From: a virus | IMG/VR virus record: IMGVR_UViG_3300006077_000045 | Coordinates: 1 to 21,542 of that record | Length of the DNA: 21,542 bases | Reading direction: 5' to 3' (one strand) | Shown here: positions 1 through 21,542 of the stretch, piece by piece | Position numbering within the stretch: position 1 is the first letter of the stretch | Layout of the letters: each line of letters starts with the position of its first letter | Translations under genes and position numbers: made by a program | Notes under the pieces: model-generated | Told to the model about the DNA's origin: nothing | Databases searched by the model: none | The model's input: only the letters and a program-made list of their open reading frames with translations

Positions 1-665
1 CCTCCTTTTGATTTTATATCAGCAGGCGTAGAATCGTAGATTCCATCTTTTACAACTTTATTCAGATACCCGATGGCAACTCTTCTGGCGTAACCGTCAT
101 CTCTATTTAGCTCCCCAAGAGTAGAGTCCAAGCCATCACTGATAGCTTCGCCAGATTCAAACTCGCTCCAGTTTGTTCTGTCTAACGTATCGTATGCTGA
201 GACGGCTCTTACGAATTCCTCTAGGTGACTAATATTAGCGGTAGCTGACTCAATAATAGACGCATACAACAATGCCACAGTTGGCATATTTTCGTTATAG
301 TGGTACCATTGGAATTCTTCTGATTCGAAGTGTTGGCTTATCGCTCTTACATCCACATTATCTGTATTAACAGCGTTTAACTTAGCGCGTTGCTCTTTTG
401 TAAGATATAAGTCGGTAACCAATATCAACAGGGTGCCTTCTTTATGAGACTCACCTTTGGCTATTAGTTTAGTTATTAGTTTATCTACGCCTATGTTGTC
501 TTCACCGTTTATCTGCTCAATGTCGCCTTCTCTAGCTTCGTGTGTAAGAAGAGAACATGAGAAACCGTCTAAGTCCACGTGACTTAAGTGGATTACCCGA
601 TCGTAATTCATGATGTCTATCGCAGGTACGTTTAGTTCTTCAAATGCTTGTTGTTCTTTTTTCAT
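1..665 (-). CDS. DHH/NrnB-like protein lacking DHH motif (3' end outside window)
   Basis: The reading frame starts at ATG 665 behind a good AAGGAG site and stays open to base 1, so the C-terminus lies outside the window (221 codons visible). Near the N-terminus HLSHVDLDGFSCS matches motif I (HxDxDG) of DHH-superfamily phosphoesterases, and LLILVTDLYLT matches motif II with its Asp. The layout, including the AVSAYDTLDRTNW segment, resembles the NrnB (oligoribonuclease/cyclic nucleotide phosphodiesterase) branch. Where the family has DHH, this protein reads ISQHF, so the metal-binding centre looks broken and catalysis is doubtful. It is a close paralogue of the gene at 813-2030, and a class A promoter motif lies upstream. 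Family assignment is by motif recall; the role in the phage is unknown. Confidence 0.6.
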   Translation of the reverse strand, partial: MKKEQQAFEELNVPAIDIMNYDRVIHLSHVDLDGFSCSLLTHEAREGDIEQINGEDNIGVDKLITKLIAKGESHKEGTLLILVTDLYLTKEQRAKLNAVNTDNVDVRAISQHFESEEFQWYHYNENMPTVALLYASIIESATANISHLEEFVRAVSAYDTLDRTNWSEFESGEAISDGLDSTLGELNRDDGYARRVAIGYLNKVVKDGIYDSTPADIKSKG

Positions 666-740
666 TTTATACTCCTTATAGTTAAGTATGGGATGACTCC
701 CGTTTTATTGCTTATAAATAAACACCTCTCTTATACACCA

Positions 741-760
741 TAATGATATGTGAGTAAAAT
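741..760 (-). promoter_or_regulatory. Class A promoter-like motif
   Basis: On the minus strand this reads ATTTTACTCACATATCATTA, one of seven copies of a shared motif in this window. It lies 76 bases upstream of the start codon at 665, giving the longest leader of the set. The leader holds a small GGGA/TCCC stem at 690-701. Function as a promoter is inferred from position and recurrence. Confidence 0.6.
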
Positions 761-781
761 ATCTTCGAATACTAAAACAAT

Positions 782-809
782 ATACAGTATACCATATGGT
801 ATACTGTAT
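782..809. repeat. Cassette palindrome 1 (perfect, 28 bp)
   Basis: Perfect inverted repeat with half-site ATACAGTATACCAT, centred at 795/796. It lies three bases past the stop codon of the leftward gene ending at 813 and upstream of the class A motif at 741-760. It could be a 3' hairpin terminator (only a short TTTT follows on the minus strand) or a protein-binding site. Confidence 0.85.
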
Positions 810-812
810 GTA

Positions 813-2030
813 TTATTTTAGCAATCTATTTATTGTAATGATATATTGATTGCGTAATAGACGGAGAGCTTTTCTCCATGTTCTTATTGCACCGGACTCT
901 ATAACAGTAGGTGTTGATTCGAACACTCCTCCTTCTATGACCTTTGCGATTTCTGCTAAATACCAGATGGCGACATCTCTAGTGTAATCATCATCTTTCT
1001 TTAACTCCCTTAGGTAAGTATACAAGCCATCGTCAATAGCCTCACCAGAAGCAAATACATTCCAGTTCGTTCTGTCGAATGTGTCATATGCCGACACAGC
1101 TTTTACAAATTCGTCGAAGTAACCGATATGAGCGGTACTAGGTCCACTAATAGCCGCATACAGTGACGCGGTAGATGACACACTTTCGTTATTGTAATAC
1201 CATTGATAATCTTCTAATTCAAAGCATCGTGTATGATTATTAGATATCGCCCTTACATCCACATTACCTGTGTTAACAGCATCTAACGTAGCGCGCTGTT
1301 CTTTGGTAATGTATAAGTCAGTAATCAGTATTAATAGACTGCCAGACGTATGAGATTTACCTTTGACTACTAATTCTTCGATAGTCTTATCCGCACCTGC
1401 TCTGTCTTCAACGTTTATCTGTTCAACGTTACCTTCTCTAGCTTTGTGCACAAGAGTTGAGCATGAGAAACCATCTAAGTCAACGTGACTTAAGTGGATC
1501 ACATGATCATAATCTGTTATGTTTAGCGCAGATACATTTAGTTCATTGGATTCCATATAAATATCCTTTTTTTTCATGAATTCTTCGAGATAACCGATAT
1601 TAGTGGTAGCTGACTCAATAATAGCCGCATACAGTAACGCTGCAGCTGACGCGTCTGTGTTGGTGTAATACCACGATGGGCGATCTTCCAATATGGTGCC
1701 TTGCGTATAATGATTAGATATCGCCCTTACATCCACGTTACCTGTGTTAATAGCGTCTAACTTAGCGCACTGTTCTATATTAATGTATAATCCAGTAATC
1801 AATATTAGTAGAGTACCTTCTTTATGATCTTTGCCTTTGACTACTAATTCATCTATAGTCTTATCTACGCCTGCTGAGCCTTGAGTTCTCAACTGCTCAA
1901 CGTAACCCTCTCTAGCTTCATGTGTTAACATGGAACATGAAAAACCATCTAAGTCCACATAACTTAAGTGAATTACGCGATCATAATCTGTGATGTTTAT
2001 TGGAGGTACATTTAGTTTATTGAAATCCAT
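813..2030 (-). CDS. Fused tandem DHH/NrnB-like protein, 405 aa
   Basis: I chose ATG 2030 rather than the more upstream in-frame start at 2072, because AAAAAGGATATTCA precedes it and the N-terminus then aligns with the paralogue at 1-665. Residues 1-151 are a truncated DHH-like copy (HLSYVDLDGFSCS, ILITGLY, AISNHYT). Residues about 159-405 are a complete second copy (HLSHVDLDGFSCS, ILITDLY, AISNNHT, AVSAYDTFDRTNW). Both copies have lost the DHH triad, and the first has also lost the motif II Asp (D to G). The join at residues 151-159 is a former leader: it still carries AAAAGGATATTTAT before an internal ATG at 1556, so a separate 247-aa product may also be made. It probably arose by deletion between tandem genes. 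Function unknown; a phosphodiesterase role is doubtful. Confidence 0.65.
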   Translation of the reverse strand: MDFNKLNVPPINITDYDRVIHLSYVDLDGFSCSMLTHEAREGYVEQLRTQGSAGVDKTIDELVVKGKDHKEGTLLILITGLYINIEQCAKLDAINTGNVDVRAISNHYTQGTILEDRPSWYYTNTDASAAALLYAAIIESATTNIGYLEEFMKKKDIYMESNELNVSALNITDYDHVIHLSHVDLDGFSCSTLVHKAREGNVEQINVEDRAGADKTIEELVVKGKSHTSGSLLILITDLYITKEQRATLDAVNTGNVDVRAISNNHTRCFELEDYQWYYNNESVSSTASLYAAISGPSTAHIGYFDEFVKAVSAYDTFDRTNWNVFASGEAIDDGLYTYLRELKKDDDYTRDVAIWYLAEIAKVIEGGVFESTPTVIESGAIRTWRKALRLLRNQYIITINRLLK

Positions 2031-2074
2031 TGAATATCCTTTTTTATTTTTATATACTATACTTAGTATCATAT

Positions 2075-2094
2075 TAATAATATGTGAATAGAAT
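2075..2094 (-). promoter_or_regulatory. Class A promoter-like motif
   Basis: On the minus strand this reads ATTCTATTCACATATTATTA, matching the class A consensus. It lies about 45 bases upstream of ATG 2030 and just downstream of palindrome 2, the usual order in this window. Confidence 0.6.
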
Positions 2095-2115
2095 AATTAG
2101 AATAGTAAAAAATAG

Positions 2116-2147
2116 ATATACAGTATACCATATGGTATACTGTATAT
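2116..2147. repeat. Cassette palindrome 2 (perfect, 32 bp)
   Basis: Perfect inverted repeat with half-site ATATACAGTATACCAT, centred at 2131/2132. It begins two bases past the stop codon of the leftward gene ending at 2150. On the minus strand it is followed by CTATTTTTTAC, a T-run that would suit an intrinsic terminator. Confidence 0.85.
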
Positions 2148-2149
2148 GT

Positions 2150-2902
2150 TTATTTTAATTCGCCTTGAGCTAATGCTTCGGGAATCTCTACGGGGGACAG
2201 GTCTTCATCTTCATCATCAGGGATTGGTTCTTTATTTTGATATTCTTCTGGAATCTCTTGCGGAGAAAGGTTATCGGGGACTGGCTCTTTATTTTGATAT
2301 TCTTCGGGAATCTCTTGTGGAGAATCGGGGATCTGTTTTTCATATTCGTCGTCAGGGATCGGCTCTTCGCCATAGTCTTCGCGAACATCTTTCGGAGCTA
2401 TCGACGCTTCGTCTTCGGTAGTTGGTTCTTCAGTGGTGGTACCGGATAGTAAGCTAATTGTATCATCATAGATCTTTCCTAACGTACCAGTATGGATATC
2501 TAAGAAGGCTTCACCTACCTCTTTAGCTTTATCTTCATCTCCCTCGATCACTTCATATGAAATGTCCCCTCCGTCGAATAGACGTAACGATATGGTGACG
2601 TCATCTTTCTTACAGACAATACTACCTGTACCTGCGACTAAACTAATTTCATAATCAGTGATTTCGCTCTTTATCTTACCATTGATAATGGCATCAGCAG
2701 CAAACTGCTTTATTTGCATCTCTTTATGTTCATCTGGTAAACCGCTTATGAAATACTCTAGTATACCTGTCGCTATTAGTCTCAGTACGACTTTATCCTC
2801 TTTATTAGCTTTCATGTTATCACACCCAGCATACGCTGTCCACAATGCTACGATCTCTGGAGACGCTTCTACTTGTTCTTCTGGTTTGTTTCGTTTTGAC
2901 AT
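2150..2902 (-). CDS. Unrecognised protein with acidic Pro-rich tail repeats, 250 aa
   Basis: I do not recognise a family. The start at ATG 2902 has a good AAGGA site. Residues 1-150 look globular and soluble, with no signal peptide or membrane segment. From about residue 155 the chain becomes acidic and Pro/Glu-rich and contains near-identical units SPQEIPEEYQNKEPVPD (194-210) and SPQEIPEEYQNKEPIPD (213-229), with a decayed third unit near 236. The gene follows the portal gene on the same strand, but a terminator-like hairpin and its own class A motif separate them, so it is probably expressed independently of the portal. It may be an accessory virion or host-interaction protein; that is only a guess from context. 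Confidence 0.7.
   Translation of the reverse strand: MSKRNKPEEQVEASPEIVALWTAYAGCDNMKANKEDKVVLRLIATGILEYFISGLPDEHKEMQIKQFAADAIINGKIKSEITDYEISLVAGTGSIVCKKDDVTISLRLFDGGDISYEVIEGDEDKAKEVGEAFLDIHTGTLGKIYDDTISLLSGTTTEEPTTEDEASIAPKDVREDYGEEPIPDDEYEKQIPDSPQEIPEEYQNKEPVPDNLSPQEIPEEYQNKEPIPDDEDEDLSPVEIPEALAQGELK
2216..2323 (-). repeat. In-gene tandem repeat encoding SPQEIPEEYQNKEP units
   Basis: Two near-identical copies with a period of 57 bases (19 codons) lie inside the 250-aa gene, followed by a diverged third. They encode an acidic, Pro-rich, probably disordered tail. Repeats of this kind can change copy number by slippage. Confidence 0.75.
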
Positions 2903-2931: not shown

Positions 2932-2950
2932 TAATAATATGTGAATAAAA
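2932..2950 (-). promoter_or_regulatory. Class A promoter-like motif
   Basis: On the minus strand this reads TTTTATTCACATATTATTA. It lies about 30 bases upstream of ATG 2902 and overlaps the T-run of the portal terminator, so termination and re-initiation signals are merged. Confidence 0.6.
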
Positions 2951-2992
2951 AAACTTGACTCTGTTCATCTTGGATATCCAAGATGAACAGAG
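2947..2992 (-). terminator. Intrinsic terminator after portal gene
   Basis: A perfect 34 bp inverted repeat (2959-2992, half-site CTCTGTTCATCTTGGAT) starts 20 bases past the portal stop codon. On the minus strand it is followed by AAG and seven T's (2947-2953). Its sequence is unrelated to the ATACAGTATACCAT palindromes, although it occupies the equivalent place upstream of a class A motif. Confidence 0.75.
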
Positions 2993-7592: not shown

Positions 7593-7624
7593 CACTATCA
7601 CATGTCATGTGACATGTGATAGTG
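7593..7624. terminator. Bidirectional hairpin between convergent genes
   Basis: A 15-bp perfect stem (left arm CACTATCACATGTCA, 7593-7607) with a 2-base loop lies between the stop codons at 7586 (+) and 7626 (-). T-runs on either side are weak. The position between convergent genes supports a shared terminator. Confidence 0.65.
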
Positions 7625-7625
7625 A

Positions 7626-8285
7626 TTATATGTTTATGTCGATGTGTATAGCTTTGAACACTTGCTTCAATGTAGTGGTAGCGCCTGTCTTGGTGATGAA
7701 CGGCGCTAACGTAGCTTTATCTACTACACCATTATTAAATAATTGAGTCTTCAGCATATTGGAGGCGGATATATCACCACCTCTAATTCCTACTAACTCT
7801 CTTAGAGTATTATCTAACCCTAAAGATTTCAGTATGTTTATTTCATTTAAAGTAATCTCTCCGGATTTACTATCACTAGTCACCTGACCAGTTAACGCAT
7901 TCCTAGATTTAAGATTATCGTGTACACTAAAGTTTTTAGATATAGTCTGACTCATAGCAGCTATAGGCATTGGTAATACCATAAACTCATTATTGGGCAT
8001 GTAGCTATCTTCCCCGTTCATGATGTTTAACTTCTTAAACAGTCTCACGCCATGTTTTTGCATTAGCTTCTTATTTCTATTCAGATCCAACTTAACGTTC
8101 TTATCAGAGTTAGGAGCAAATATACTTATACCATAAACACCGGTCCTGATGTCCGTCATCATGCTATCGAATTCTACGTCAGACATACGCTTAAATAGCT
8201 TTGAGTACATCTTAGAGTTAGTCTTAGATGGGTCTATCTCATCCAACCTAGATAAGATCATCTTCTCTACCTTGCCTCTTTTCAT
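7626..8285 (-). CDS. Unrecognised protein with possible RNA polymerase beta C-terminal resemblance, 219 aa
   Basis: Start ATG 8285 follows AGGGAG at good spacing. No signal peptide or membrane segment. Residues about 110-180 contain SKNFSVHDNLKSRN, LTGQVTSDSKSGEI, then LKSLGLDNTLRELVGIRGGD. The order and spacing recall the conserved C-terminal block of bacterial RNA polymerase beta (DKIHARS, GGQRFGEMEVWALE, YTLQEMLTVKSDD). The likeness is faint and could be convergent, and the protein is far shorter than a beta subunit. It also fits a family of small virion proteins in jumbo phages with LTGQxTxxSK and RGGD signatures. It is the last gene of the leftward run from the class B motif at 9118-9129, 26 bases after its neighbour. 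Function not established. Confidence 0.7.
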   Translation of the reverse strand: MKRGKVEKMILSRLDEIDPSKTNSKMYSKLFKRMSDVEFDSMMTDIRTGVYGISIFAPNSDKNVKLDLNRNKKLMQKHGVRLFKKLNIMNGEDSYMPNNEFMVLPMPIAAMSQTISKNFSVHDNLKSRNALTGQVTSDSKSGEITLNEINILKSLGLDNTLRELVGIRGGDISASNMLKTQLFNNGVVDKATLAPFITKTGATTTLKQVFKAIHIDINI

Positions 8286-10884: not shown

Positions 10885-11598
10885 TTATTCGTTCTCGTCA
10901 ACCAATTGCGTCTTTGAAGTTTTTCCATTCTCGGAATACTCGTTTAGTGCATCATTTATATATGGATATTGATCGCCTTTCGACTTCTTAAACTCAGCAG
11001 ACATTAAGCGTAATATCGATACGTCTTTACAAACATGTTTATGCGTCATACCACCGTCTATCATAGCTCCTAAGTTATCTGATCGATCTACTGCTATAGT
11101 CATATATAGCACCACATCACCTAAGTGAAATGCATATAGGTCACCGCATCGATATAATACAGGGTCAGCGTGAGACTGATCACTTTTTCTGTATTTGTAC
11201 TTCAGTCGACCCGATGATACAGTTACGGCATCTGCTATCAATACACTCAGCAATACAGATGCGATACCTAAAGATAAGTAACTGAACTCGTACGTTAGAC
11301 TACCGACTAACATCAAAGAGATTGGCAACGCCAATCTCAACTTACCTTGTAACAATTCATGCGACCAATTCATTGCAATACGTCTCTTCTTCATAGACGA
11401 GTTGTCGTTCTTACCTTTTGTATTGAATAAGTAATTCACAATTATGATAAGAACCACCGACGTTGAGATGGCGTATATCATTGTATCTGTATTTAAATAT
11501 GATAAATACAATATGATAATCATATAAATTGTGATGTACTCATCCAATTTTGGGCGCAGGATGCTTAATATGAGTTTTAATCTTTCTTCAGCTGTCAT
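10885..11598 (-). CDS. Unrecognised membrane protein, 237 aa
   Basis: Hydrophobic segments near residues 20-35, 40-58, 88-105 and 106-125 suggest two helical hairpins in the membrane separated by a basic loop (KKRR at 70-73), followed by a soluble C-terminal half of about 110 residues ending in acidic residues. No family is recognised. Start ATG 11598 has an AGAGG site and a class B motif close upstream. It is first in the leftward run that continues into the RecA-like ATPase. It might modify the host envelope or anchor a phage complex; this is a guess. Confidence 0.65.
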   Translation of the reverse strand: MTAEERLKLILSILRPKLDEYITIYMIIILYLSYLNTDTMIYAISTSVVLIIIVNYLFNTKGKNDNSSMKKRRIAMNWSHELLQGKLRLALPISLMLVGSLTYEFSYLSLGIASVLLSVLIADAVTVSSGRLKYKYRKSDQSHADPVLYRCGDLYAFHLGDVVLYMTIAVDRSDNLGAMIDGGMTHKHVCKDVSILRLMSAEFKKSKGDQYPYINDALNEYSENGKTSKTQLVDENE

Positions 11599-11616
11599 TG
11601 TATGTTCCTCTTTTTA

Positions 11617-11628
11617 ATTTTCAAATAA
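11617..11628 (-). promoter_or_regulatory. Class B promoter-like motif (left arm)
   Basis: On the minus strand this reads TTATTTGAAAAT, 18 bases upstream of ATG 11598. With the copy at 11659-11670 it forms an inverted repeat (arms CTAATTATTTGAAAA), so the 88-base gap carries two back-to-back promoters. Confidence 0.6.
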
Positions 11629-11658
11629 TTAGTATATCGTATATTATTACTATTCTAA

Positions 11659-11670
11659 TTATTTGAAAAG
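11659..11670 (+). promoter_or_regulatory. Class B promoter-like motif (right arm)
   Basis: Reads TTATTTGAAAAG, 16 bases upstream of ATG 11687, with AAAAAGGAG between. It is the mirror partner of the motif at 11617-11628. Confidence 0.6.
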
Positions 11671-11686
11671 ATAAAAAGGAGATTTT

Positions 11687-12184
11687 ATGGGGTGTGAATT
11701 TAGAGTGACCATAGAGGATGAGATGAGCGAAGATGGATATGATATATTGCCTATAGCGATCTCCGATTTATACGATGGTAGAATAAACAAACGCATATTT
11801 AAGTCAACTATAGGACTGAAGAATAAAATACGCACTCTCATATCAGATAGAACTAAACGCGGCGTCTGTCGAGTAAGATCATTTGTGATTCTGGCTAGAA
11901 ACAAGAATAAAGGTCACGTTAAGGTGGTACCATTAATTATAGGTAAGAGTAAACCCTCGTTAAGTAAGCTAGGAGACGTTTTAATGGACTTAAACGACAA
12001 AGGTAGAGTGTCGGGCCTCTGGAAGCTAAGAGTGTCTCTAATCGACACGTACGGAGAATTAGACATTAGCAAGGTAATAGGTGTCTATGTAAGTAAAATG
12101 AGAGACTATCCAGGTATCATAGAGTTTATAGTAAATGAGAGAGATTTGGATAGAGTGACAAAAATATTAAAAAAGAAAAGATGA
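11687..12184 (+). CDS. Small basic unrecognised protein, 165 aa
   Basis: I do not recognise a family. Start ATG 11687 follows AAAAAGGAG at good spacing. The product is Lys/Arg-rich, soluble, without Cys clusters or membrane segments, and ends in a basic KKKR. It has its own class B motif and is the only gene on its transcript before the convergent neighbour at 12194. Its last codons lie in the arm of the hairpin that ends the opposite gene. Confidence 0.6.
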   Translation: MGCEFRVTIEDEMSEDGYDILPIAISDLYDGRINKRIFKSTIGLKNKIRTLISDRTKRGVCRVRSFVILARNKNKGHVKVVPLIIGKSKPSLSKLGDVLMDLNDKGRVSGLWKLRVSLIDTYGELDISKVIGVYVSKMRDYPGIIEFIVNERDLDRVTKILKKKR

Positions 12185-12209
12185 TAGCGACCGTTAGATC
12201 ACTATCATC
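12160..12209 (-). terminator. Terminator embedded in the gene end of 12194-12520
   Basis: On the minus strand GATGATAGTGATC (12209-12197) pairs with GGTCGCTATCATC (12192-12180) through 13 pairs, two of them G-U, around a TAAC loop. The TAA in the loop is the stop codon of the leftward gene. TTTTCTTTTTTAATATTTTT follows at 12179-12160. In plus-strand RNA the two wobbles become C-A mismatches, so it is oriented for the minus strand. Confidence 0.7.
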
Positions 12210-12520
12210 GTTCTATTCCACGTCTTCCCATAAGGGATGACTGAGGTTTCAGAGTCATCGCTTACGACTCTGAAATGGCAGTTCTCTTTGGAGACCGTAG
12301 CTGTCTCCAAGCCTAGCATTGCTACTATTATTAGTGACTCTTGTGAGTCGTTGATATCTGACGATACGCTGTAAACACAATCACTGTTTTTAAATACAGT
12401 GATTATGTCTGTTGTCTCAGGAGATGCCAATAAGAAGCCTGCCGGTATAAAGGACAGCCCGTGCCCGGTATTTGATCTAAGTCGGCCTTTGTTGTCTCTA
12501 GTTATCATTAATTTTTTCAT
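12194..12520 (-). CDS. Small unrecognised protein, 108 aa
   Basis: I do not recognise it. Start ATG 12520 is preceded by AGATAGGAG. The product is soluble, Ser/Thr-rich and probably beta-rich. It is driven by a class A motif, not class B, which groups it with the accessory genes. It is convergent with and nine bases from the gene at 11687-12184. Its stop codon is in the loop of its own terminator. Confidence 0.6.
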   Translation of the reverse strand: MKKLMITRDNKGRLRSNTGHGLSFIPAGFLLASPETTDIITVFKNSDCVYSVSSDINDSQESLIIVAMLGLETATVSKENCHFRVVSDDSETSVIPYGKTWNRTMIVI

Positions 12521-12546
12521 ATTTTACTCCTATCTTTTATGTACTG

Positions 12547-12565
12547 TAATGATATGTGAATAAAA
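12547..12565 (-). promoter_or_regulatory. Class A promoter-like motif
   Basis: On the minus strand this reads TTTTATTCACATATCATTA, 26 bases upstream of ATG 12520. It mirrors the plus-strand copy at 12626-12644 around a 48 bp palindrome. Confidence 0.65.
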
Positions 12566-12580
12566 TATCTTTGAATAATA

Positions 12581-12628
12581 AAAATTAGATATACAGTATA
12601 CCATATGGTATACTGTATATCTAATTTT
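12581..12628. repeat. Cassette palindrome 3 (perfect, 48 bp, between divergent promoters)
   Basis: Perfect inverted repeat centred at 12604/12605 containing the common half-site ATATACAGTATACCAT extended outward by eight more bases (AAAATTAG). It lies between two divergent class A motifs, and no annotated gene is transcribed into it. This is the longest copy in the window. Confidence 0.9.
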
Positions 12629-12644
12629 CATTCACATATCATTA
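12626..12644 (+). promoter_or_regulatory. Class A promoter-like motif
   Basis: Reads TTTCATTCACATATCATTA, followed by TAGTACAATA and the conserved leader of the AP2 gene at 12702. Its first three bases overlap the palindrome. Confidence 0.65.
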
Positions 12645-12652
12645 TAGTACAA

Positions 12653-12670
12653 TAGAGATTAACATCTCTA
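12653..12670 (+). promoter_or_regulatory. Conserved leader hairpin of AP2 gene
   Basis: TAGAGAT, loop TAAC, ATCTCTA: a 7-bp stem in the leader, followed by AACTAACCTAAAA and the ribosome site. The same leader occurs in front of the paralogue at 15178-15966. It may stabilise the mRNA or regulate translation. Confidence 0.5.
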
Positions 12671-12701
12671 AACTAACCTAAAAAAAGGAGTAATTATTAA
12701 A

Positions 12702-13487
12702 ATGTACAATGAGCGACGTATAGGAGAGACACACGTATCTAACGAAGGATATGAAGTAGTTGTAGTTAGAGGTGGTGAGAAGAAAGGATATGTTGTAGTT
12801 AATATAGACGGTAGATATGAAAAGACAGTATCGCATTCGCAACTAGTCAAGGGTGATGTAAAGAACTTATATCATAAGTCTGTTTTTGGTTATGGTTATA
12901 TAGGTATAGGTAAGCATAAAGCGTCTATTAAACGTGTACATACTAAGAAATATAGCACATGGACAGGAATGCTAGAGAGATGTTGTAGTTCGGATTACCA
13001 TATTAAATATCCAACTTACAAAGATGTAACAGTCTGTGATGAATGGCATAACTTCCAAGTGTTTGGGGAATGGTATGACGAACAGTATAAAGAAGATGAC
13101 TGGCAATTGGATAAAGACCTACTAAGTGGAGGTAAAAAGATTTATTCTCCAGAGACATGTGTGTTTATACCTAGAGAATTAAATAGCTTCTTAGGACAAG
13201 ATAAAAGAAATGGAGACTACCCAACAGGTGTGTCTCGCAAAGGATCTAAATACCGTTCACGAAGCTATTGTTCGCTATCTGGCAGACTAGTGCATCTAGG
13301 AATGTTCGATACCATAGAAGAAGCTGATTTAGCATATAGGAATAAGCGATTAGTAAACATGATGGTTTGGTTAAAGCTTATAGATAACAATCTAAACATA
13401 GATTATAGAGTATATGATGGACTGAGAGTCATCTATGAAGAATACAAGAAAGAAAGAGATGACCTCAGAGAAATAATAGCATCTTAG
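12702..13487 (+). CDS. AP2-domain putative homing endonuclease, 261 aa
   Basis: It belongs to a common phage family of free-standing proteins whose N-terminal part (IGETHVSNEGYEV, then SVFGYGYIGIGKHK) precedes a conserved central block: W-GMLERCCSS, YPTYKDVTVCDEWHNFQVF, LDKDLL, YSPETCVFIPRELN (about residues 88-190). The end (GDYPTGVSRKGSKYRS, then LGMFDTIEEADLAYRNKR) is an AP2-type DNA-binding domain. Such proteins are often listed as HNH-like or AP2 homing endonucleases; cleavage activity is assumed from family, not shown. It has GGAG 11 bases before ATG, its own class A motif, and palindromes on both sides. It ends at TAG, the only TAG stop among the genes here, and 13 further in-frame codons resemble the tail of the copy at 21262, suggesting a recent nonsense change. 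Confidence 0.75.
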   Translation: MYNERRIGETHVSNEGYEVVVVRGGEKKGYVVVNIDGRYEKTVSHSQLVKGDVKNLYHKSVFGYGYIGIGKHKASIKRVHTKKYSTWTGMLERCCSSDYHIKYPTYKDVTVCDEWHNFQVFGEWYDEQYKEDDWQLDKDLLSGGKKIYSPETCVFIPRELNSFLGQDKRNGDYPTGVSRKGSKYRSRSYCSLSGRLVHLGMFDTIEEADLAYRNKRLVNMMVWLKLIDNNLNIDYRVYDGLRVIYEEYKKERDDLREIIAS

Positions 13488-13529
13488 CTAAGAGCTAACA
13501 AGCAACTAGATGAGACTAAAGTCGCTTAA
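13488..13529 (+). other. Untranslated relic of AP2 gene C-terminus
   Basis: In frame after the TAG at 13485-13487 the bases encode LRANKQLDETKVA and then TAA. This matches LSANKQSNEMNAA, the end of the paralogue at 21262-21542. It is either lost coding sequence or a short extension made by read-through. Confidence 0.65.
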
Positions 13530-13539
13530 TAACAATATT

Positions 13540-13561
13540 CAGTATACCATATGGTATACTG
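13540..13561. repeat. Cassette palindrome 4 (perfect core, 22 bp)
   Basis: Core half-site CAGTATACCAT, centred at 13550/13551. It sits between the convergent ends of the AP2 gene (ancestral stop at 13529) and the endolysin gene (13587), and could serve as a shared 3' end. Confidence 0.8.
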
Positions 13562-13586
13562 TATATATATATATTCTTTTTATTAT

Positions 13587-15081: not shown

Positions 15082-15095
15082 GAAAGAAAGAGTCG

Positions 15096-15125
15096 TATCT
15101 AGTATACCGTATGGTATACTAGATA
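15096..15125. repeat. Cassette palindrome 5 (30 bp, one mismatch, variant arms)
   Basis: Half-site TATCTAGTATACC with one G/T mismatch near the centre (15109/15112). The outer arm differs from the main type (TATCTAG in place of ATACAG), with matching changes on both sides. It lies between the AP2 gene end and the class B motif of the holin gene. Confidence 0.75.
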
Positions 15126-15177
15126 GTATTATATGGTATCTAAGTTATGAGCCGATGTTCTACCTCCATTCTGTCTG

Positions 15178-15966
15178 TTAAACTGTTTTCTCCTTAAGGT
15201 CATCTCGTTCTTTCTTGTATTCTTCATACATTACCTTCAGTCCATCATATACTCTATAATCTATTTTTGGATTATTATCTATAAGCTTTAACCAAACTAT
15301 CATATTAGATAATCGTTTGTTTCTATACGCTAGATCAGCTTCTGCTATTGTATCGTATGTCCCAAGATACAAAGATCTACCCGATAATAAACATTGTATT
15401 TGTGAACGGTATTTAGATCCTACACGAAATACGCCTGTTGGGTAGTCTCCATTTCCTTTATCTCGTCCTAAGAACATATTCAATTCTCTAGGTATAAATA
15501 CGCATGTATTTGGAGAATAAACTTTCTTACCTCTACTTAATAGATCTTCATCCAGTTGCCACCATTTTTCCTTATACTGTTCATCATACCAGTCTCCAAA
15601 GTTTTGGAAGTCATGCCAATCATCACAGACTGTTGCATCTTTGTAGGTAGGATATTTAATACGGTAATCAGAGCTATAACACATTCTTAGCATTCCTCTC
15701 CATGCGATATATTTCTTAGTAAGTACACCTTTAATAGACACTTTATGTCTACCAATACCTATATAACCATGACCATATACTGACTTATGGTATAGGTTCT
15801 TTATGTTACCATTGATTAGACTCGAATATCGTACTAACTTTTCGTATCTGCCATCTATACTAACTACAACATGATATGGTTTATCACTGCCTCTAACTGC
15901 AACTATATCATATCCTTCGTTAGATACGTGTCTCTCTCCAATATGTTGTTCATTGTATATTTTCAT
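15178..15966 (-). CDS. AP2-domain putative homing endonuclease, 262 aa
   Basis: A close paralogue of the gene at 12702, alignable over its whole length: IGERHVSNEGYDI, SVYGHGYIGIGRHK, YPTYKDATVCDDWHDFQNF, LDEDLL, YSPNTCVFIPRELN, then the AP2-type domain GDYPTGVFRVGSKYRS and LGTYDTIAEADLAYRNKR. Start ATG 15966 follows AAAAGGAG. It has the same class A motif and leader hairpin as its paralogue, and palindromes lie on both sides (15096-15125 and 16039-16070). It sits between the capsid and holin genes without interrupting either, as expected of a free-standing homing gene. The C-terminus ends at KEKTV and lacks the LSANKQ tail. Cleavage activity is assumed from family resemblance only. Confidence 0.75.
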   Translation of the reverse strand: MKIYNEQHIGERHVSNEGYDIVAVRGSDKPYHVVVSIDGRYEKLVRYSSLINGNIKNLYHKSVYGHGYIGIGRHKVSIKGVLTKKYIAWRGMLRMCYSSDYRIKYPTYKDATVCDDWHDFQNFGDWYDEQYKEKWWQLDEDLLSRGKKVYSPNTCVFIPRELNMFLGRDKGNGDYPTGVFRVGSKYRSQIQCLLSGRSLYLGTYDTIAEADLAYRNKRLSNMIVWLKLIDNNPKIDYRVYDGLKVMYEEYKKERDDLKEKTV

Positions 15967-15988: not shown

Positions 15989-16006
15989 TAGAGATGTTAA
16001 TCTCTA
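15989..16006 (-). promoter_or_regulatory. Conserved leader hairpin of AP2 gene
   Basis: On the minus strand this reads TAGAGAT-TAAC-ATCTCTA, identical to the plus-strand hairpin at 12653-12670. Identity extends through AACTAACCTAAAA to the ribosome site. Confidence 0.5.
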
Positions 16007-16014
16007 TTACACAA

Positions 16015-16033
16015 TAATGATATGTGAATAAAA
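16015..16033 (-). promoter_or_regulatory. Class A promoter-like motif
   Basis: On the minus strand this reads TTTTATTCACATATCATTA, between palindrome 6 and the leader hairpin of the AP2 gene starting at 15966. Confidence 0.65.
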
Positions 16034-16038
16034 ATTAG

Positions 16039-16070
16039 ATATACAGTATACCATATGGTATACTGTATAT
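16039..16070. repeat. Cassette palindrome 6 (perfect, 32 bp)
   Basis: Perfect inverted repeat with half-site ATATACAGTATACCAT, centred at 16054/16055, four bases past the capsid stop codon. CTAATTTTTATT follows on the minus strand, so it could end the capsid transcript. Confidence 0.85.
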
Positions 16071-16074
16071 TATA

Positions 16075-18123
16075 TTAAATCGTGTGGTAGTTAGCAGTAA
16101 CTTTACCAAGTACACTGTCTAGCCCAGTCACAGAGTATTCAACCAATAAAGGAAGTGTGACCACATGCTCGAAGAGTGGGTTAACAACTGTTTTATTCAC
16201 AGTCTCTCCGTTCTCAGATACATTCGTTTTAGATACTAAAGACGGAATGTATAGTCTTGATCCAAATCTATCAATAGCTACAGATGACTGATCCGCACCC
16301 GTATCGCCGATAGTTACGAATAGCTTGTCTTTTATATCTGTGTTGTCAGTAGATACCACTTTAGCAACACAACCGTTTCCTAGATCGATGCCTGTACCAA
16401 GGTATGCTGCTAGTGCAGGGTATGTTCCAATAACAATATCTGTTTTACCAGCTCGCTTAACAAACTTCTCATAGTTAGAGTAGCCTGACTCAGAAAGCAT
16501 GTTAGCGACGTCAGTAGCGATGTTGTTTATAACAGTTGCTTTGATGTCAGCGTTTCTATCTTGACCACGTTGACTATCTACATACTCGGAGAGGTTCATG
16601 GCAGTGAACTTGTAGAATGGTTTACAGAAAGTCTGTCCAAGAGTATTCGTATTGATCTCGCTAGCGCTTACACCTTCTTGACTCTTCATGAATGCAGCAA
16701 AACCAAGGATAGTTTTCACAGCAGAGAAGTTAGAGAGAATACCTGTAACAGATATTAGGTCTGTAAGGAACGCTCCGTCGTTTGGTCCAACATTTTGTCC
16801 AATAATTGGAGAATCAGTAGTAATAGGAGTCTTAGCTCTTACCGGTAGTTTCTCTGTAGTTGGTTTAGAAGTTAGGTTGATACCTTTTCTTCTGATGTTG
16901 GAGTTTGTGATTCTTGTATCGATATCAACACCAACAGCTGTCATCGCTACGGCTTGAGTTTCGATAGCAGTGTACACTGAAGAAGATGAGTCGATTACGT
17001 TACCGTTTACATCTCTAGCACCAGCGAAAGTCCAAGCACCTACATATACAGATAGTTCGCCATCAACAGCGTTACCACTACCGAGGAGTTCTACGTCAAA
17101 TACAGCTTTAGATCCAGCAGGTAATGCAGCGAGTCCAGCGACAGTACTACCTGTTACGTGGTCGGTAAGAGCAGACAAGTCTACTACCATTTGAGTCTTA
17201 GTGTTCAATACTAGATCTTTAGAGTCGCCTCTTTGTCCAGCCATGAACGTAGCACCGATTAGTCTAGATACATCAACTCTTACAAACTTAGTTTTGTCTG
17301 TAGTCGCGAAGTATAGAGCTTCCAGAGGTAGGTTAGTATCAAGAGTATCTGTGTTATCCATAACGCCTTTAGCAAGAAGTGCAGTAGATTGTGATGCTCC
17401 AAGAACATTCAGTCTAGTACCAAGCTTATAAGGTGCTGTAGATACGCTATCACCTGATGCCGCATACTCTTTAGTAGTAGCTAATCCTGTTTCTAGTTGA
17501 GAATCAAACGCTCCACCGACGACTGGAAGAAGTTTAAGTTGATCTGACGCTAGAATACCTTTAGGGTCAGAGATAGCCGTGATCAATGATTGTCTGTTAA
17601 ATTTCTTAGAGTCAGCATTAGCATTATTTCTAAGGAATGTGTTAATAACTTGTGTAGTTCTCAACGACACCGAGATACCTGCTGTAGAGATGTCACCGAT
17701 TACAGAAGGGAAGAACGCTTCAGAGAATTCATCTTGAGTAGATGCTGATACATTGTATGCGAAAGTAGCTGCTTGATATACATCTACTGCTCTACCATCG
17801 AAGTGTTCTAGCGAAGCTACATCTAGTGCGTCAATGTTAGCACCAAACGATTGCTGGTTTTTGTCATCAACTGATTGGAATAGCGAGCTTCTATCAGCTG
17901 TGATAGCCGCTGCTGCTTTAGTCGCCGCCTTAATTGCTGTCGATGGAGTCGACTCAACTGACGCGCCGTCTAGTTGCGCTGCTACATGCAATGCTGTTCC
18001 GAAGTCTACAAGACCTTCGTTTGTGTTTTCTTCTACGGCAGCTACGATAGCTACGTCTTGGTCATATTGTTTTGCTCTGATAGCGTCTAATGCGCTACCA
18101 AACACTAGTTCGATTTTGGCCAT
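16075..18123 (-). CDS. Major capsid protein, 682 aa
   Basis: Probable HK97-fold major head protein. Segments typical of large-phage capsid proteins include TQDEFSEAFFPSVIGD (about 129-144), a stretch like NRQSLITAISDPKGILASD leading into LLPVV (about 176-202), and NSNIRRKGINL (about 407-417). The protein is Ala/Thr/Ser/Val-rich without Cys clusters or membrane segments, and its length matches jumbo-phage capsid proteins. The first 100 residues are Ala-rich and could be a cleaved prohead segment; no cleavage motif is certain. It has an AAGGA site, a class B-like motif, and its own leader, consistent with high late expression. A tail sheath protein was considered but fits less well. The assignment is from recalled patterns, not a search. 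Confidence 0.75.
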   Translation of the reverse strand: MAKIELVFGSALDAIRAKQYDQDVAIVAAVEENTNEGLVDFGTALHVAAQLDGASVESTPSTAIKAATKAAAAITADRSSLFQSVDDKNQQSFGANIDALDVASLEHFDGRAVDVYQAATFAYNVSASTQDEFSEAFFPSVIGDISTAGISVSLRTTQVINTFLRNNANADSKKFNRQSLITAISDPKGILASDQLKLLPVVGGAFDSQLETGLATTKEYAASGDSVSTAPYKLGTRLNVLGASQSTALLAKGVMDNTDTLDTNLPLEALYFATTDKTKFVRVDVSRLIGATFMAGQRGDSKDLVLNTKTQMVVDLSALTDHVTGSTVAGLAALPAGSKAVFDVELLGSGNAVDGELSVYVGAWTFAGARDVNGNVIDSSSSVYTAIETQAVAMTAVGVDIDTRITNSNIRRKGINLTSKPTTEKLPVRAKTPITTDSPIIGQNVGPNDGAFLTDLISVTGILSNFSAVKTILGFAAFMKSQEGVSASEINTNTLGQTFCKPFYKFTAMNLSEYVDSQRGQDRNADIKATVINNIATDVANMLSESGYSNYEKFVKRAGKTDIVIGTYPALAAYLGTGIDLGNGCVAKVVSTDNTDIKDKLFVTIGDTGADQSSVAIDRFGSRLYIPSLVSKTNVSENGETVNKTVVNPLFEHVVTLPLLVEYSVTGLDSVLGKVTANYHTI

Positions 18124-20405: not shown

Positions 20406-21161
20406 TTATTCTATATTTTCTATAGCTTCTCTCGGTAGGATACCTCTCATTCTGGATCGCCACTCAGCAGCGTATTCTTGTCTGGCTTTGTCATAGGCTT
20501 CAGCTGCTTCTTCTTTTGTTTCGAAAGATCCGAGGTAGACTCGTTTATTGCTCAGACCTTTAATGTATACTGAGAATGGACGCTTTTTATTACTCGTTCG
20601 TGCAGCCCCTATAACGCCCAAAACATTATTACTATATTTGTTAGACAAGAATTTCGTTAAGCTCTTAGGTATCATAAGACACGTGGATGGCGAATATAGT
20701 CCGTCTTTAGGCGATAGTAGAGACGAATTCAATTCTAAACTATCATACCCGTCAATATTTTTCCATTTAGCACGAGTATCTATATACCACTTTGCAAAGT
20801 TCTGGAAATTATGCCATTCCTCGCACACCTTAGACGGTTGATGATTAGGATGTGTTTCTGCATACTTTGGTGTTGACCGTAGAATCATACCATGCCATGC
20901 GTTATATGCTTTAGTATGTATTCTATTTTTAGAACGTGTGTACTCACCTACTCCGACGAATCCTATCCCATAAACGGAACGGTGAAACGGATTCTTGACT
21001 CTTCCTCTTTTCACATCGACATAAGAGAGATGTCTTCTAACCTTGTTGTCGATCAATACAGTACAGTGAGTGATTCTAGAACCTCCGTCCACTATTTCCA
21101 GTGAATATCCCTCTTTAGAGGTGTATCTCTCTCCAATTCTTTTCAAATTATACTTATTCAT
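20406..21161 (-). CDS. Divergent AP2-domain putative homing endonuclease, 251 aa
   Basis: Same architecture as the genes at 12702 and 15178 but clearly diverged: RIGERYTSKEGYSLEI, SVYGIGFVGVGEYTRSKN, KAYNAWHGMILR, KVCEEWHNFQNFAKWY, LYSPSTCLMIPKSL, then an AP2-type end with RPFSVYIKGLSNKRVYLG and SFETKEEAAEAYDKAR. LDKD is replaced by LNSS, and the Cys after the Trp-Met segment (RC) is replaced by RS, so the putative active region may be altered. Start ATG 21161 has AAAGGA and a class A motif upstream, but no leader hairpin. It stands between the helicase and a fourth AP2 gene. Free-standing homing gene is the best reading; a DNA-binding regulator is possible. Confidence 0.7.
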   Translation of the reverse strand: MNKYNLKRIGERYTSKEGYSLEIVDGGSRITHCTVLIDNKVRRHLSYVDVKRGRVKNPFHRSVYGIGFVGVGEYTRSKNRIHTKAYNAWHGMILRSTPKYAETHPNHQPSKVCEEWHNFQNFAKWYIDTRAKWKNIDGYDSLELNSSLLSPKDGLYSPSTCLMIPKSLTKFLSNKYSNNVLGVIGAARTSNKKRPFSVYIKGLSNKRVYLGSFETKEEAAEAYDKARQEYAAEWRSRMRGILPREAIENIE

Positions 21162-21191
21162 ATTTTTTTCCTTTCTTCATGTATTGTACTA

Positions 21192-21210
21192 TAATGATAT
21201 GTGAATAAAA
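21192..21210 (-). promoter_or_regulatory. Class A promoter-like motif
   Basis: On the minus strand this reads TTTTATTCACATATCATTA followed by TAGTACAATAC, closely matching the copy at 12626-12644 downstream of the core. Confidence 0.65.
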
Positions 21211-21232
21211 TTTCAACATTTAATATATACGA

Positions 21233-21248
21233 TATACCATAAGGTATG
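21233..21248. repeat. Cassette palindrome 7 (degenerate)
   Basis: TATACCATAAGGTATG keeps the centre of the palindrome with one central A/A mismatch and decayed outer arms. It lies 13 bases past the stop codon of the gene ending at 21262 and upstream of the class A motif at 21192-21210, the usual position. Confidence 0.55.
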
Positions 21249-21261
21249 CTAGATAGTATCA

Positions 21262-21542
21262 TCAAGCTGCGTTCATTTCATTCGATTGTTTATTAGCACT
21301 TAGATTATTTACTATTCTTTCCTTAAGACTATCTCGTTCTTTCTCATACTCTTCATATATTGCTTTCATTCCTTCATATGCTCTACGATCAATGTGCTGA
21401 TAATTATCTATAAGCTTTAACCAAAACAACATGTTGCCTAATCTACTATTCCTATATGCCAAATCAGCCTCTTCAATTGTGTCAAATACTCCAAGAAACA
21501 CCTCTCTACCAGATAATGAACATTGGTTTCGCGAACTATATC
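21262..21542 (-). CDS. AP2-domain putative homing endonuclease (5' part outside window)
   Basis: The frame is open to the right edge, so the start lies outside. The visible 93 codons begin YSSRNQCSLSGREVFLGVFD and continue TIEEADLAYRNSRLGNM, which aligns with the AP2-type C-terminal domain of the genes at 12702 and 15178 (YRSRSYCSLSGR, HLGMFDTIEEADLAYRNKR). It is therefore the end of a third close paralogue, not an independent small gene starting at the GTG near 21501. It ends LSANKQSNEMNAA, a tail still readable past the TAG of the 12702 gene. It is in tandem with the more diverged AP2 gene at 20406. Confidence 0.75.
   Translation of the reverse strand, partial: YSSRNQCSLSGREVFLGVFDTIEEADLAYRNSRLGNMLFWLKLIDNYQHIDRRAYEGMKAIYEEYEKERDSLKERIVNNLSANKQSNEMNAA

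Follow-up and report, generated by a model that had tools for sequence, protein, structure and literature searches.

The palindrome between two divergent genes

The window analysed here is the whole stretch of 21,542 nt (record positions 1-21,542) of IMG/VR record IMGVR_UViG_3300006077_000045. Its encoded proteins identify the window as part of an uncultured phiKZ-like phage. In profile comparison its capsid protein matches PhiKZ_MCP (E 4e-103), comparison with PHROGs and Pfam recognized a phiKZ-type DnaB helicase and a virion protein, and a UvsX-like recombinase and a piece annotated as RNA polymerase beta subunit are also encoded. The relatives are distant: capsid protein identity is about 30%, and by megablast none of 50,697 phage records matched the window at the DNA level. 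The region under study contains the following features:

12194..12520, minus strand: leftward gene of 108 aa; an AGGAG ribosome-binding site adjoins its ATG
12547..12559, minus strand: class A box of the leftward gene; a 22-nt box with one mismatch is present at 12540-12561
12577..12632, no strand: the palindrome under study; perfect over 48 bp at 12581-12628, and 56 bp long with one mismatched pair
12632..12644, plus strand: class A box of the rightward gene HEG1
12702..13487, plus strand: HEG1, an AP2/HNH-type free-standing endonuclease gene (PHROG 953, HNH endonuclease, E 2e-65)

The leftward gene has no PHROGs or Pfam match. The perfect 48 bp palindrome proposed in the original prediction is present and is flanked by divergent genes and promoters, as had been claimed (12194-12520 on the minus strand and 12702-13487 on the plus strand). 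Complementarity is 96% over the 56 bp, and the longest perfect arm is 24 nt, a length that reaches at most 12 nt and averages 7.5 nt in 200 sequences from a first-order Markov model. A 28-nt core occurs five times in the window (four exact occurrences and one with one mismatch) and not in shuffles, and diverged copies of the palindrome are found at 15095-15126 and 21224-21255. At 12577-12632 the symmetry runs outward into an inverted promoter pair with arms 12532-12565 and 12626-12659 (85%). It was also correctly observed that the other copies follow stop codons (their centres lie 18-68 nt downstream of the stops) and that the copy at 12581-12628, the longest and most symmetrical one, ends no sense transcript. 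The palindrome was absent from every other viral or genome contig covered by scans that may omit records very near the window's own genome, and no Rfam match to a known structured RNA was obtained. The argument that a hairpin of this length is a hazard and hence selected is weak, because an uncultured relative has a perfect palindrome of 44 bp (L008 6624-6667), so that a length of 48 bp is nothing unusual in this group.

A repeated cassette of putative terminator and promoter

The 13-nt class A box (TCACATAT[CT]ATTA) has exactly seven occurrences in the window, each located upstream of and directed into a gene, with a palindrome just upstream. For six of the seven boxes this palindrome has the shared core or a decayed form of it (two boxes share 12577-12632), and for the remaining one it is unrelated. 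A terminator-like palindrome in the window usually precedes the 13-nt promoter box, and the two form a reusable terminator-promoter cassette. The copies and related features outside the divergent junction are:

727..819, minus strand: terminator-promoter cassette in tandem order, with its palindrome at 780-811 and its box at 741-753; 83% identity to 12533-12628
2075..2161, minus strand: terminator-promoter cassette in tandem order, with its palindrome at 2116-2147 and its box at 2075-2087; 87.5% identity to 12547-12633
2932..2992, minus strand: terminator-promoter pair of the same layout; class A box at 2932-2944, palindrome of unrelated sequence at 2959-2992
13535..13566, no strand: partner palindrome at the convergent HEG1/endolysin junction, with 27 nt in common with 12577-12632 in either orientation
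15095..15126, no strand: diverged palindrome after HEG2, with two base pairs changed on both sides and the stem kept
15178..15966, minus strand: HEG2, a paralogue of HEG1 that follows the capsid gene in the usual tandem order
16039..16070, no strand: palindrome directly past the stop of the major capsid protein, followed by a class A box (16015-16027) and HEG2
21192..21255, minus strand: decayed palindrome (21224-21255) after the partial HEG4, with a class A box (21192-21204) before HEG3

The palindromes at 782, 2118 and 16041 have the box on one side, that at 12591 has it on both sides, and those at 13537 and 15096 have it on neither; apart from 12591, every class A site has just one side next to a promoter. 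The promoter-side flank is CTAATTTT, which is AAAATTAG on the other strand; it is also found at 16041 and in a variant form at 2118. The AAAATTAG extension is present on both sides of 12577-12632 and absent from the convergent partner at 13535-13566. The extra symmetry of 12577-12632 thus arises because both of its sides are promoter-side flanks of the cassette, and it needs no selection for an operator.

An operator shared by both class A promoters had been proposed. In such a reading, a dimeric protein, perhaps an AP2/HNH autorepressor like I-TevI, would bind the palindrome and control the two genes' promoters together. The palindrome is close to both promoters, the boxes being 9 and 27 nt away from its 32-nt core, the core sequence is strongly conserved among the copies, and a precedent exists in phage T4, in which I-TevI represses its own late promoter via an operator (PMC2988022). 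However, the palindrome next to the class A promoter at 2932 is unrelated and the one next to that at 21192 is decayed, the copies at 13535 and 15096 have no adjoining class A promoter, and copies are placed past the stop codons of unrelated genes. This distribution leaves the operator unsupported and we consider it improbable. The related suggestion that the palindrome is the target of an AP2 protein is not borne out either: none of 33 homologous AP2/HNH genes in other phages has a palindrome in any flank, although binding itself is still compatible with this result. On the same count (0/33), the idea that the palindrome travels with the endonuclease family was rejected.

The palindrome could also represent back-to-back late promoters, as its central CATATGG contains TATG on both strands. 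TATG is the reported consensus of the phiKZ non-virion RNA polymerase, with G as the start point (PMC10612078), and the loop CATATG is retained in five copies. TATG is merely four bases, however, and the copy at 15095 has it on one strand only; other palindromes in the window do not have TATG at their centre and palindromes of the relatives mostly have other loops, making this explanation very unlikely.

Another divergent junction in the window (10885-11598 / 11687-12184) has no perfect palindrome but an imperfect inverted repeat at 11610-11678 with 26-nt arms (85%), which resembles two promoters of a different type placed back to back. The only contig found with the promoter string (L043) has neither DNA similarity to the window nor a comparable palindrome and was judged a chance match.

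Palindromes are placed at gene 3' ends and are predicted to form stable hairpins

In the window and seven uncultured phiKZ-like relatives, 26 palindromes are located in tandem, 16 in convergent and 1 in divergent junctions, with 21 further palindromes inside genes or outside the junctions called by the simple gene caller that was used. The sole palindrome in a divergent junction in that survey is 12577-12632. In phiKZ, PhiPA3, Noxifer and FLC9, for which about 49 kb per phage was covered with the deposited annotation, palindromes are absent from all 11 divergent junctions, and those in convergent and tandem junctions mostly lie some 20-40 nt past stop codons. When these four phages and the window are taken together, palindromes are present at 9/16 convergent, 25/199 tandem and 1/15 divergent junctions (convergent versus divergent, window included, Fisher P = 0.006), the one divergent case again being 12577-12632. 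Among relatives, none of 18 divergent junctions has a palindrome.

The palindromes in the window are predicted to form strong hairpins (-13.8 to -29.2 kcal/mol, z -2.9 to -10.4), with -29.2 kcal/mol and z = -10.4 for the RNA of 12577-12632. Four palindromes of unrelated sequence (2959, 7593, 12180 and 20339) occupy the same kind of 3'-end position in the window. Hairpin and position are constant and sequence is not, as expected of terminators. An intrinsic terminator has a stable RNA hairpin at the transcript 3' end, and both the hairpins and their placement agree with this; the divergent copy at 12577-12632 lacks the 3'-end position. A T-run follows the stem at 12180, 12577 (minus strand) and 16039, and T-runs are weak, short or absent at several copies, for example at 7593 and 15096. 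Bidirectional phage terminators at convergent junctions are similar in that phiKZ and its relatives also have hairpins at convergent ends, whereas 12577-12632 lies in a divergent junction with no sense transcript to end. Covariation was rejected as proof of RNA structure because the distinct copies are too few and shuffles equal it in 139/500 cases; within the palindrome family the signal is weak and consists of two double changes that come from a single copy.

We conclude that the palindrome family is likely to consist of transcript terminators, at which RNA polymerases of the phiKZ type would stop. Strong termination at predicted terminators has been reported for jumbo phage AR9, which also has two multisubunit RNA polymerases (PMC5312081). 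If true, the placement would provide a simple and checkable rule for transcript ends in phiKZ-like phages, which rely on RNA polymerases of their own for transcription and whose terminators appear to have received little study in the papers found.

Three of the uncultured phiKZ-like relatives (L006, L009 and L010) reuse terminator-like palindromes of their own at several gene ends, with a shared core like CTAGTAGC...GCTACTAG. In the window, a 219-aa gene at 7626-8285 that matches PHROG 3233, annotated as RNA polymerase beta subunit, ends at a perfect-stem palindrome in a convergent junction.

Origin of the divergent arrangement

Self-comparison of the window identified one further unit:

12589..13473, plus strand: palindrome, promoter and HEG1; inverted copy of 16070-15187 (82.5%, 887 nt)

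The homology between the two units starts at the outer edge of the palindrome, and their upstream 95 nt are 96% alike, exceeding the coding part. At 16070-15187 the palindrome follows the stop of the capsid gene and precedes HEG2, in ordinary tandem order. On the other side, 13255-13568 (the 3' end of HEG1 and its palindrome) matches 21536-21223 in inverted orientation (partial HEG4 and its palindrome), and this match stops at the palindrome edge. The left half of the divergent palindrome with its leader (12533-12628) matches the tandem cassette at 727-819. Joining the palindrome centres 12604 and 13551 gives the layout of the tandem site at 2118, and normal tandem order is regained if the segment between the two palindromes is taken out or flipped.

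The repeat structure, the homology boundaries and the placement rule in the relatives are consistent with 12577-12632 being the terminator half of a cassette, placed between divergent genes via a reversed or inverted endonuclease unit. We regard this as probable, the reading for this single copy being somewhat less likely than the terminator reading of the family. The palindromes would be read as RNA hairpins at gene 3' ends, and, in the simplest history, a unit consisting of palindrome, promoter, HEG1 and palindrome would have been inserted in reverse or inverted in place. Because the palindrome is its own reverse complement, such a unit would be able to join in either orientation. The left half and leader would derive from the module of gene 12194-12520 and the right half and leader from the HEG1 module, and the divergent copy would be the joint of these two terminator-promoter modules back to back. 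Route and direction are inferred: the insertion or inversion may have come about through homologous recombination between palindromes, or else through homing-linked repair or another route. At present the divergent copy may at most insulate both promoters by stopping antisense read-through. The palindrome is thus judged to be a real feature with an ordinary function, whose unusual place is explained by its neighbourhood. If true, this reading accounts for a perfect palindrome between divergent promoters that has no role in their control, which bears on the annotation of such palindromes elsewhere.

Of the recombination site suggested in the original prediction, the part that stands is that of a passive homology joint; there is no sign of a dedicated recombinase or of a nick site. 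The perfect dyad symmetry and the repeated copies bounding gene units speak for a dedicated DNA element, which might serve for resolution, for nicking or as the target of a site-specific recombinase. Yet no site-specific recombinase gene was recognized in the window, and the positions of the palindromes, including those of unrelated sequence, obey the terminator rule, so that we give such an element very little probability. The reading as a tRNA attachment site was dropped because the window is without any tRNA.

Since the window is a single metagenomic contig, the orientation of 12619-13534 depends on reads across the palindromes. The contig might have been misjoined at these near-identical sequences, the real phage having the ordinary tandem order. 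Flipping 12619-13534 indeed yields a fully canonical layout with one promoter side per palindrome, and 27 nt are common to both bounding palindromes whichever way they are read. However, such an error would require joining at 27 nt or less; any assembly step with a longer k, or reads that span some 60 bp, would resolve the junction, and modern assemblers work with k longer than 27. Reverse-oriented HEG genes are, moreover, otherwise unremarkable, and we consider an assembly artefact unlikely. A relative with an empty site or with the opposite orientation was not found among the viral and genome contigs scanned, in scans that may omit the nearest records. As a tentative and rather doubtful generalization of the recombinational origin, self-complementary terminators may act as orientation-free recombination joints at which endonuclease cassettes of phiKZ-type phages insert or flip, and both orientations of HEG1 might then occur in the population.

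Comparison with known systems

PeSL (promoter early stem-loop) motifs, which Arbiol 2010 and Comeau 2014 are said to have described, are reportedly composite promoter-terminator motifs of T4-type phages. In these motifs a stem-loop terminator is said to lie directly upstream of an early promoter, and the unit is reportedly repeated at many gene borders and credited with recombinational gene shuffling. PMC4503421 cites Arbiol 2010 and Comeau 2014 for PeSL. The cassette resembles PeSL in that a stem-loop lies directly upstream of the promoter as a composite unit (7/7 class A boxes) and in that multiple copies are present in one genome (727-819, 2075-2161, both halves of 12533-12660, and 16001-16077). 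With respect to gene shuffling, homology boundaries at palindrome edges were seen within one genome. In contrast to T4-type phages with host-type early promoters, the window is phiKZ-like, a group that has its own multisubunit RNA polymerases; its stem is a near-perfect AT-rich palindrome, its promoter box differs and one cassette pair stands back to back. By analogy, the cassette appears to work like PeSL, its closest match in working. The likeness is one of layout, and we do not file the cassette as PeSL because the phage is not T4-type. If true, the idea of the terminator-promoter cassette of T4-type phages extends to phiKZ-like phages.

Campylobacter phage CP21 carries homing endonucleases, and recombination between repeats has been proposed to invert its gene modules (PMC4546147), a likeness to the arrangement proposed here. 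By contrast, the CP21 repeats form long arrays with units of 72-86 bp, where the window has individual terminator palindromes, and the modules of CP21 are much larger.

The window has three full HEG paralogues that match PHROG 953; the AP2 Pfam match to HEG3 is below the cut-off. Intergenic location and HNH/AP2 homology, the marks of free-standing HNH homing endonuclease genes, are found for the HEG genes, which are ordinary members of a widespread phage HNH family. Like the free-standing homing endonuclease genes seg and mob of T4, and like AP2/HNH genes of phages, they are intergenic HNH genes with their own promoter; insertions can set promoters against the surrounding genes (PMC2988022). 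Unlike the 33 homologues, the paralogues in the window are bounded by the phage's own terminator palindromes.

Four AP2/HNH genes are located within the 21.5 kb, with HEG3 and the partial HEG4 in tandem at 20406-21542. The gene at 813-2072 holds repeated blocks of about 300 nt (window 66-2072), and its left neighbour, which ends off the window, is its paralogue (71-77% identical); the same terminator-promoter cassette lies upstream of both. HEG1 stops at a TAG where its paralogue HEG4 appears to continue for about 13 residues of matching sequence (window 13485-13527), and HEG1 therefore looks slightly shortened relative to HEG4.
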